Part shown: positions 3,001-13,286 of the stretch, one piece after another | Layout: each line of letters begins with the position of its first letter | How positions within the stretch are numbered: position 1 is the stretch's first letter | From: Brugia malayi | Lineage: Eukaryota > Nematoda > Chromadorea > Rhabditida > Onchocercidae | DNA: 64,000 nt | NCBI RefSeq assembly: GCF_000002995.4 | Contig: NW_025062479.1 | Coordinates: 12,257,721 to 12,321,720 of the forward strand | Direction: 5' to 3' | Made by a program: the position numbers and the translations under genes | The notes under the pieces: model-generated | What the model was told of the DNA's origin: nothing | Databases searched by the model: none | Seen by the model: only the letters and a program-made list of their open reading frames with translations

Positions 3001-6000
3001 GCAGTTTTATGCTGCTGAAATTACTCTCGGCTTGCAGCATTTACACAAGGAGCATATCATTTACAGGGATCTAAAACCAGAAAATATCCTTCTCGACGAT
3101 TATGGTTGTTTTAATTCCCTGTTTTGTCTTGAGTGGGGAATATTGATTTTTTCGTTTAAAAATGAAGTAAGCAGAAGTGGAAAATTCGAACCATCAAATT
3201 AGAGGTCATTTAGTAATATTGTAAACTGATTAGGCGTAAGCTGGCTGGAAGCGAGCTATTGTTGTCTTTTAATATTCATTCCCTAAGTTGCTCATGCTTT
3301 CTTTGAGGGAATGATATTTCAGTTATGTTTTAGGACATGTTCGAATATCTGACCTAGGACTTGCAGTTGAGCTAAGAGATAATGAACCTATAAAAGGACG
3401 TGTTGGCACGGTTGGTTATATGGGTGAGTCTGTTTTGAAATTATTTTATTGCAATTTGATATATCATTATAAGGTACAATTGTATGAAAGCTTGTACTCT
3501 TCAAAATCTTAAATTGAAAAGGGACAATCATTTTGAAACTGCATTCATATGCATATTGTTTTATGTGTCTGACAATATTTATTGCAATTTTGTTAATTGC
3601 AGTTATAAAAGTAACACTCATTATCTGATGTGATGATAACTTGACATGGCTGACAGGTCATTCTTTCAGTTTCAGATTTGTTTTCGCAGCGTTACTTTTT
3701 TTGCATATTTCAGCGCCAGAAGTTATCAAAAATGAACGTTATTCATATAGTGTCGATTGGTGGGGATTGGGTTGTCTAATATATGAAATGATCGAAGGAA
3801 AGGTCGATATTGCTGTTGTTTGCTTCTATTCCAAAATAGCTGACATTTCATAGTGTTAGTTTTGGAATTATTTTCTGTGATAGTTATTATTTGAACCAAT
3901 TATTTCAGGCACCTTTTCGGCAACGGAAAGAAAAAGTGAAACGTGAAGAAGTGGAACGGCGAGTTCATGAAGATCAGGAAAAGTATTCAGATAAATTTAG
4001 TGAATCTGTCAGGACTATATGCAGGTAACAATCGTCTCATTGTGTATAAATGGTAGCTGAAGTTTGATGGACGAATAGATGAAGTAAATTTAGATGTGCA
4101 GAATATGAATATATATATAGACCAAAAAAATTTTAATGGTAGAGTAACATTTTTTTCCAGAGGTCTTCTACACAAAGAACCAGGATTTCGGCTTGGATGT
4201 CGCAGAGTTGGTAAACCGGAAGAAGGTGCTGAAGAGTTGAAAAGCCATCCTTTTTTTTCACAGGGAGATATGAATACGGGTAGAGAAGCGGTACCTTGGA
4301 AGAAAATGGAAGCCGGGAAGGTACATAAAAGCAAATTTTTGAAGGAATTATTCAAACGAAAGATAAAATCAAATGAAAGAAGCGACGAATTTTAATACAA
4401 CTTCACTCACTTTAAACCTTTTAAATTGAAGTTGAACATATGTATCTTTCGCTTCTCCATCCATAGATAAATGCATGAAATGGGCAGCTGGTCGTGACCT
4501 AATTTTGATACTGATGGTCAGATTATTTGGATAATTTATGAAGTCTTTTGCCATTGCCATTTGTATTTTACTTACCAACTTTTGCTCAACTGCTTCCTTA
4601 TCTTCTTCCCTGTTAGATTCATTTCATTTGTCCTATCAGTATGGTCATCGTTGTGGCAAAAACCGTTAGTAACCTATGTGAAGTTCATGAATCATATAAG
4701 CATTTAGTTTGGCTTGGTCATCGATATTAGCTGCTATTATAATATCAAATTATGATGTATCCCAATGAAAAATGATAGTTTTTTTTTTTAAATAGAATAT
4801 ATACAAGTACCACAAATTGTCGATTGTTTAGATGATGTTATTTACAAATCACATGTAAATCTAACTTTTTATTTCATATTTTTAGTTAACACCACCGTTT
4901 TGTCCTGATCCTAGAGCAGTATATGCCAAAGATGTGCTTGATATCGAGCAATTCAGCACTGTTAAAGGTGTAAGATTAGACGCTACGGATAATCAGTTTT
5001 ATGGGAAATTCAGCACCGGATCTGTTTCAATACCATGGCAGAAAGAGGTATAGTTGTTGTTTTTTTTCCTTTTTTTTTTTTTTTTTTTTTTTGGAATTCA
5101 TTTTTTTATTTAGAGCAGTTGTGAGATATGTCAGAATTTCAAAAATTTGCTGCGACGTTAATAAAAGAAGCCTAGAGAGAACTCCCTTCTTATTTGACGA
5201 AGTATCGCTGTTGATAGTTGTGGTAAGTGATGCAAACTTTGAATTATGAAACTATTTTGCTTTTCACGATAAATTTGGCTCCATTTATAATCTATAAATG
5301 TTACACTGTTGTATAGTTTCTTCAAATTACACTGAGTTTAATCTTTAATATATATTATAGAAGCATTTGTTAGTTTTTTAGAGCAATCTACGATTACAGA
5401 TACAATATATTGATAGACCTCTTGATATTTGTGATCTAGAACTTTTGAATTATTGTTTAATTTGACCTGCTTCTTGATGTATTTATAAGTTTTCTATTTC
5501 TTTAGTTTGCCAATTTTACCCCCCCCCCCCCCATAAACTTAGCTCTTAGCTTGGTTCATGCATCTATATAATATATATGCTACACATAAGTTCCATAAAC
5601 TTCTAGATATGCTTTGTGATGTAATAGTGAACGTCTAAATACAGTTGTTTTCAATAGTCTTCAGTTGTCGAAAATCTGTCCAAAAAGTTTATGGAGAATT
5701 TGAATTGAATCTCTTTTCACAATTTGGTCATAACCATTCATTAAGTGATGTCCAACTAGCTAGGTTTCTGCTCTCGCTTTGTCGATTTTCGCTGACGAGG
5801 TCATACAGTAGGTAACCTGTGCTGCAGTCTCCTCACGGCCTCTTCAAAGTTGTCACAATAGCATTTTGCTTCCTAGTTGCGTTAGCCATTTCTTTCTCTG
5901 TTCTTTATTTTCACAGCAAAGTGTTAGGTCTGTGCAGAGCTCACTGTTAAGGTATGATTTATAGCTGCATATATTTTTTATAGATGATCGAAACAGAATG

Positions 6001-6338
6001 TTTCCGAGAACTCAACGTGATGGAACAAAATGGTGAATTAGTGTGGAATTTGCGTAATGACTCGATTAGGGGTGAAAATAGCAAAAGTGAATCTAATAAC
6101 AAATTTGGATTTCTCGCACGACTGTTCAAGCGAAAAGTATGCATCTATTTCCCTTTTGTCTGTCATTTCCAGTCTTTTTTTTTCTTCAATCTTCTCGTTA
6201 TTTCTGTGTACTGTATTTCAATTCTATTTTCGAACATTTTTAATTTTTATAAATTTTCCAAAGTTTTACCATTCAATCCAAATAATCAAAAGTAAACGAT
6301 TAAAGCTAATGAAGTGCATCTTGCAGACCGAATTTTAA
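1..6338 (+). CDS. grk-1: G-protein-coupled receptor kinase, GRK4/5/6 class (5' end outside window)
   Basis: Serine/threonine kinase that phosphorylates activated GPCRs at the plasma membrane so that arrestin can bind. Exons seen: <1-62, 379-503, 891-1062, 1953-2078, 2749-2815, 2943-3104, 3334-3423, 3714-3802, 3909-4024, 4161-4320, 4886-5047, 5984-6136, 6327-6338; all phases agree and the last exon ends TEF-stop. In order: the end of the RGS-homology domain (exons to about 980), the glycine loop GKGGFGEV, the lysine in ALKKLEKK, the catalytic loop YRDLKPEN, the GRK-typical DLG in place of DFG, the APEV segment, the AGC-kinase tail (TPPFCPDP, then SIPWQKE) and a basic C-terminal end (LARLFKRK). 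There is no PH domain, which argues for the GRK4/5/6 class over GRK2/3. The first partial exon has a weak translation match and its donor (gtatgt, 63) was chosen by phase. The exon at 1953 has a 160-bp tandem repeat of its end, and everything from 3148 on is duplicated in inverted orientation at 10077-13286. Confidence 0.93.
1990..2309 (+). repeat. Two-copy 160-bp tandem duplication across a GRK exon/intron boundary
   Basis: Positions 1990-2149 and 2150-2309 are near-identical direct copies, with a handful of mismatches mainly after 2100. Each holds the last part of the kinase exon that encodes the [16 protein letters not shown] segment, its donor site (gttcgt), and about 70 bases of intron. 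The second copy lies in the intron and lacks its own convincing acceptor, so the first donor at 2079 gives the conserved protein. A weaker third relative can be seen around 2403-2450. Confidence 0.9.
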
Positions 6339-13000: not shown

Positions 13001-13286
13001 ACAGACTCACCCATATAACCAACCGTGCCAACACGTCCTTTTATAGGTTCATTATCTCTTAGCTCAACTGCAAGTCCTAGGTCAGATATTCGAACATGTC
13101 CTAAAACATAACTGAAATATCATTCCCTCAAAGAAAGCATGAGCAACTTAGGGAATGAATATTAAAAGACAACAATAGCTCGCTTCCAGCCAGCTTACGC
13201 CTAATCAGTTTACAATATTACTAAATGACCTCTAATTTGATGGTTCGAATTTTCCACTTCTGCTTACTTCATTTTTAAACGAAAAA
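10077..13286 (-). pseudogene. Inverted, 5'-truncated GRK copy (right arm of the duplication)
   Basis: Reverse-strand copy of the GRK 3' half. Exons equivalent to the real gene lie at 13011-13100, 12632-12720, 12410-12525, 12114-12273, 11384-11545, 10286-10438 and 10084-10095 (stop at 10084-10086), with intact splice sites and no visible substitution. It begins just before the activation-segment exon ([14 protein letters not shown]). It therefore lacks the RGS domain, the glycine loop, the ATP-binding lysine and the catalytic loop, and could not make an active kinase. No promoter or start exon is seen beyond 13286. Identity to the gene points to a very recent duplication or an assembly artefact; the sequence alone cannot separate these. 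Confidence 0.85.
10890..10912. repeat. G homopolymer, 23 bases
   Basis: Counterpart of the C-run at 5519-5532, nine bases longer. It is the largest length difference between the two arms. Confidence 0.95.

Follow-up and report, generated by a model that had tools for sequence, protein, structure and literature searches.

Brugia malayi carries, on its assembled X chromosome, two copies of the 3' half of one kinase gene that lie in opposite orientation and are free of substitutions over 3.2 kb. The locus raises the question whether such identity marks a duplication of very recent date, an error of the genome assembly, or an old repeat whose copies are kept alike by gene conversion. The stretch of DNA analysed, 64,000 nucleotides in length, is referred to as the window.

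Structure of the inverted repeat

Self-BLAST of the window aligned 3148-6345 (plus strand) with 13286-10077 (minus strand) over 3,210 columns, without a mismatch and with 12 gap columns that all fall within two gaps. The reciprocal row for this arm pair was 3 bases longer and included 1 mismatch. The left arm measures 3,198 bases (782 coding and 2,416 non-coding) and the right arm 3,210. Full alignment placed the first gap after position 4778, where the right copy has 3 additional T, and the second after 5518, where it has 9 additional C; the 3,198 aligned bases contain no substitution. Identity of this degree over 3.2 kb cannot be due to chance. Beyond both arm edges the flanking sequences are unlike each other in the full alignment. 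The locus is thus composed of inverted arms of >99 % identity with a unique spacer and unique flanks, as are palindromes maintained by gene conversion. Its parts are:

3148..6345, plus strand: left arm, 3' half of the grk-1-like gene, the original copy (self-BLAST, alignment and exon twins)
6346..10076, no strand: spacer, unique, 3,731 bp (single match in the assembly)
10077..13286, minus strand: right arm, inverted truncated copy (self-BLAST, alignment and exon twins)
4779..4789, plus strand: T11 run, with right-arm twin A14 at 11642-11655
5519..5532, plus strand: C14 run, with right-arm twin G23 at 10890-10912

An earlier reading of the window, made from its sequence only, had described the arms as reverse-complementary without substitutions in coding stretches and had given the run lengths as 11 versus 14 T/A and 14 versus 23 C/G. 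Both statements were borne out by the alignment, in which these two runs are the only differences between the arms. A third run, the longest of T within the arms (T23 at 5070-5092, A23 at 11339-11361), does not differ in length between them, though the two shorter runs do. No second large inverted repeat was found in a 134-kb stretch around the locus at the search settings used.

The duplicated gene

The duplicated gene, which is grk-1-like, encodes a G protein-coupled receptor kinase (GRK). The left locus encodes an RGS domain and a kinase domain, the latter with GRK5, GRK4 and GRK6 as best solved relatives, which are the characteristics of the GRK4/5/6 subfamily. Its matches include GRK-1 of Caenorhabditis briggsae (84 %). 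A model of 435 residues made by joining exons agrees from end to end, at 100 % identity, with the C-terminal portion of B. malayi A0A8L7T2H3 (P0001), a protein of 591 aa with RGS and kinase domains. The sequence-only reading had spoken of a half-duplicated receptor-kinase gene; the duplication of half a kinase gene was correct, but the enzyme is a GRK and not a receptor kinase.

The duplicated part consists of the last seven exons, from the intron that follows the catalytic-loop exon (2943-3104) to 7 bases beyond the stop codon. All seven arm exons are identical between the arms:

379..3104, plus strand: GRK exons lying wholly in the window upstream of the left arm, at about 379-510, 891-1062, 1953-2078, 2749-2815 and 2943-3104; no copy at the right arm
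3334-3423 (plus) and 13011-13100 (minus): arm exon 1, identical twins
3714-3802 (plus) and 12632-12720 (minus): arm exon 2, identical twins
3909-4024 (plus) and 12410-12525 (minus): arm exon 3, identical twins
4161-4320 (plus) and 12114-12273 (minus): arm exon 4, identical twins
4886-5047 (plus) and 11384-11545 (minus): arm exon 5, identical twins
5984-6136 (plus) and 10286-10438 (minus): arm exon 6, identical twins
6327-6338 (plus; stop codon 6336-6338) and 10084-10095 (minus): arm exon 7, identical twins

The six introns between the seven arm exons are retained, and a retrocopy was therefore rejected, in agreement with the DNA-level inverted duplication that had been read from the sequence. 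The right copy covers only positions 136-263 of the 263 positions of PF00069 and does not encode a complete kinase domain. Judged from its predicted exons, it is without the upstream part of the gene and so has no RGS domain, no N-lobe and no catalytic loop, which means that it cannot act as a kinase. GRK4/5/6 kinases and the GRK-1 proteins of Caenorhabditis resemble the left locus in combining RGS and kinase domains, whereas the right copy has only the C-terminal kinase part and the tail.

One of the upstream GRK exons shows a duplication of a different kind. A 163-bp unit that spans most of this exon is tandemly duplicated (1985-2147 / 2145-2307, 95.7 % identical). A shorter B. malayi model, P0019 (BM3446), starts in an open frame through the second 163-bp unit, unlike P0001. 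In the Dirofilaria immitis proteins P0003 and P0004 this exon ends with a repeat of 7 residues.

Genomic setting and copy number

The window is located at 12257721-12321720 on chromosome X of B. malayi, which comprises 24,943,668 bases (PMC7181701, Table 1). A search of the 86.8-Mb assembly with the arm returned 37 matches, of which two were full-length, both at the locus; the other 35 were short and all fell within query bases 1902-1966, around the T23 run. Since the genome search skips very common words, such match counts are lower bounds. The spacer and the right flank (13287-18000) each gave one match in the assembly. A copy carried by a transposon was rejected, as only two full copies are present and the edges have at most 3 bp in common, with no longer target-site duplication. 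Three open frames of the spacer were tested and gave no match or no Pfam match (Pfam for two of them). A 15-bp tandem repeat lies inside open frames on both strands at 9598-9687, in the right part of the spacer. Elsewhere in the window a small inverted repeat is found at 30441-30601 / 31343-31502 (~82 % identical over ~150-160 bp, ~0.75 kb apart), and exons of a class I/II aminotransferase (PF00155) at 34241-35434.

An error of the assembly has to be considered here, in which a contig or an older WS242 piece was placed twice, the second time reversed, during scaffolding or gap closing of the X chromosome. The reference was built from PacBio contigs (HGAP) onto which WS242 sequence was grafted manually, with gap filling by IMAGE and PBJelly, the use of Quiver and ICORN, and optical maps (PMC7181701), a procedure that leaves room for such a placement. 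Run lengths as the sole difference are what is expected of separately polished copies of one locus, and the description of the strain as highly inbred (PMC6925183) is also in line with it. A simple fold-back read would predict mirrored flanks and no unique spacer; the flanks are unmirrored and a unique spacer separates the arms, so that a fold-back read was rejected as the sole cause. The same features, together with the single occurrence of flank and spacer in the assembly, speak against a double placement as well. A folded-in haplotype alone, it can be reasoned, does not explain how the spacer came to be joined at its right end to the right arm. A MinION assembly made from the same strain is in large-scale agreement with the reference for the main chromosomes, at a resolution too coarse for 3 kb; some disagreements on X were deemed by its authors to be likely errors of their own assembly (PMC6925183). 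Taken with the gene models of Acanthocheilonema viteae described below, which fit the same structure, an artefact is considered quite improbable.

Which copy is the original

The upstream exons of the GRK gene run into the left arm only. Gene models of three other filarial species that read on beyond the gene end in tails resembling the left end of the spacer. The tail of Wuchereria bancrofti P0121 matches window 6329-6391 and crosses the arm edge at 6345; in the whole genome its sole candidate was 12264046-12264111 (plus strand), which is window 6326-6391 (E 0.0012). For A. viteae P0045 the tail aligns with 6332-6391 (E 2e-5 in 134 kb), again across 6345, and for D. immitis P0046 with 6377-6421 at the left end of the spacer (E 0.003). 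Together these define one feature:

6329..6421, plus strand: conserved sequence across and behind the inner edge of the left arm (tails of W. bancrofti P0121, A. viteae P0045 and D. immitis P0046)

Models that read beyond the gene preserve a trace of the DNA that follows, and the left arm was accordingly joined to the spacer in the ancestral state, the right arm being the addition. The left arm is the original and the right arm its truncated copy. W. bancrofti P0121 (303 residues) has the first arm exon at its start (MSNSWLKSYVLG, followed by HVRISD), yet ends in the left-spacer tail. The longest contig for this model is 8,106 bp, and a start at the arm exon could result from the edge of a contig or from a spacer that is flipped.

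Two gene models in Acanthocheilonema viteae

For A. viteae two models are available, P0045 and P0122, each listed with a contig of 13,990 bp. P0045 includes the upstream exon DLKFHLYN and has a tail of the left-spacer type. P0122 starts with MWHRG, continues with the first arm exon and ends in a different tail of 115 residues. None of the 256 arm-encoded residues differs between P0045 and P0122, whereas 13 of 256 differ between B. malayi and A. viteae. The tail of P0122 found a single candidate in the 86.8-Mb genome of B. malayi, at 12267108-12267293 (minus strand), which is window 9388-9573 (E 0.153); within the 134-kb region the match (9385-9570) had an E of 1.4e-4. It lies at the other end of the spacer:

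9385..9573, minus strand: right end of the spacer matching the P0122 tail, on the strand that continues the right arm

In the kilobase adjoining the right arm the tail scored 76, compared to 33 on the opposite strand and no more than 43 in any of 526 control strand-windows. Residues 1-50 of the tail gave no significant score, 27 of the 526 control windows being as high, and a search with the tail found only the tail itself at E up to 10 among 20 candidates. The motif ATGTGG, which encodes residues 1-2 of P0122, occurs once in the 1 kb of right flank, directly beyond the edge of the arm, and is absent from the intron at 3105-3333; it is too short to carry weight.

A weak match of the tail in exactly the predicted place and orientation is most simply accounted for if A. 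viteae carries both arms. The models thus suggest that P0045 and P0122 are the two arms of one inverted repeat in A. viteae, though as protein models they may also be alternatives for one gene. Long identical repeats are hard to assemble from short reads. The presence of both arms in one A. viteae contig of 14 kb would therefore need long reads or some divergence of the DNA. No separate truncated model was found for D. immitis or for the right copy of B. malayi among the matches listed (best 120 of 251), in a listing clustered at 90 %, by which such models could be hidden. If the reading for A. viteae holds, two separate assemblies show the same structure, which speaks against an artefact.

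Possible inversion of the spacer

Litomosoides sigmodontis P0041 has upstream exons from outside the arm, and its tail resembles that of P0122 (score 96, compared to a maximum of 47 in 300 shuffles). Nothing was found with this tail in the whole genome of B. malayi, and its score against the B. malayi spacer was not significant, with 7 of 526 controls as high. The model, in which the kinase gene is followed by what would be the other end of the spacer, hints at the arrangement that recombination between inverted arms gives. Short-read assembly crossing collapsed arms would give the same L. sigmodontis record, and would also need two arms.

In its widest form the proposal is that an X-linked repeat at the 3' half of grk-1 predates the parting of Brugia, Acanthocheilonema and Litomosoides, that it has been homogenised in each, and that its spacer flips, so that the sequence behind the kinase alternates from one lineage to another. 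This is put forward tentatively, as a possibility on the doubtful side. If true, the locus would parallel, in a nematode, the repeats known from the mammalian X chromosome and the flip/flop repeats of yeast. The dead half gene would then be intact only through continual overwriting by its working twin, which the dead half may overwrite in turn.

Age and mechanism

With no substitution in 3,198 bases, divergence per site is bounded at 9.4e-4 (upper limit at 95 %). The mutation rate of C. elegans is 2.7e-9, and at this rate the bound corresponds to ~1.7e5 generations. Taken at face value this fits a real but very young duplication restricted to B. malayi, in which a recent reverse template switch left no time for divergence. 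Such an origin has precedent in C. elegans, where young duplicates are often partial, adjacent and inverted (PMC2728529), and the GC content of the arms is not raised. It fails to predict A. viteae P0122, with its start at an arm exon and its correctly oriented right-spacer tail, and is regarded as rather unlikely. If the duplication preceded the split of the genera, the bound of 9.4e-4 dates the last homogenisation rather than the duplication.

The locus is read here as probably, though by no means certainly, a real inverted repeat that is older and homogenised by gene conversion. The sequence-only reading had left the choice between a very young duplication and an assembly artefact. The duplication itself stood, but the restriction to these two choices did not, as the A. 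viteae models suggest an older, converted repeat.

For such an older repeat the following course of events can be proposed. A 3.2-kb segment of the grk-1-like gene, reaching from the intron ahead of exon HVRISDLGL to a point shortly beyond the stop codon, would have been copied in reverse ~3.7 kb downstream, probably by a template switch during replication, and the left copy would have remained the working gene. On the two A. viteae gene models, this duplication would have taken place before Brugia and Acanthocheilonema separated. Gene conversion would overwrite differences between the arms along their full length, so that in every species the copies give the impression of recent origin. Crossing-over between the arms would flip the spacer, as the L. 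sigmodontis record hints.

Microhomology at the edges amounts to 0 bp at 10076/10077 and 3 bp (AAA) at 13286/13287, on the assumption that the spacer formerly abutted the right flank; this suits template switching without proving it. In an empty-site test the joined flanks gave no open frame of >60 residues across the join, and a former contact of spacer and right flank is not demonstrable in this way. Differences between arms within a species amount to 0 of 3,198 bases in B. malayi and, if P0045 and P0122 are two loci, 0 of 256 residues in A. viteae, compared to 13 of 256 residues between the two species. A mark of GC-biased conversion was not found in the non-coding part of the arm, where the GC content of 0.308 equals that of both flank samples; the locus thus gives no sign of long GC-biased conversion.

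Relation to known repeats

Palindromes of primate X chromosomes resemble the locus in having arms of >99 % identity, a unique spacer and a location on X. They are kept identical by gene conversion and are common to several species, while sharing between species here rests on gene models, and their arms are tens of kb long (median 37 kb) and richer in GC than the flanks (PMC8981503). The arms of B. malayi measure 3.2 kb, and a GC content above that of the flanks, which is not a defining feature of primate palindromes, was not observed.

The FLNA/EMD locus of the mammalian X chromosome has inverted repeats that are homogenised by conversion and a spacer that is recurrently inverted, with longer arms and a spacer that contains genes. 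The flip/flop repeats of Saccharomyces, which are homogenised within species, are likewise short gene-bearing inverted repeats around a spacer. They consist of 4-kb repeats with two gene pairs around a 24-kb spacer with 15 genes, and the spacer flips (PMC9731477). B. malayi differs in its 3.7-kb spacer, in that one of the two copies amounts to half a gene, and in that flipping of the spacer is no more than a possibility.

Young duplicates of C. elegans are similar in their span of a few kb and in being partial, adjacent and inverted (PMC2728529; PMC3637608). Their median span was 1,670 bp in 130 pairs (PMC3637608); newborn duplicates are often adjacent and inverted, and about half of the young pairs are partial or chimeric (PMC2728529). 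They were called young because of low synonymous divergence, whereas the age of the B. malayi copy would be masked if conversion acts. For filariae, no repeat of this kind was described among the matches listed in the open-licence literature, and the sections available of a review on nematode chromosomes describe none (PMC9071541).

Implications for filarial genomes

For practical work on B. malayi, the last seven kinase exons are a place where read mapping, variant calling and the design of probes or knock-downs meet two positions in the genome. Most of the X chromosome is present in single dose in males (PMC7181701), and exchange between the arms of one chromosome could keep the copy intact there. 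The truncated GRK models in databases fit crossing or breakage of short-read assemblies at the locus without showing it. If the repeat is common to several filarial genera, such crossing or breakage is to be expected wherever filarial genomes are assembled from short reads, and the identity of its copies must not be taken for youth. The locus would then lend itself, as a natural experiment of small size, to testing how gene conversion and inversion of a spacer proceed on a sex chromosome of nematodes.
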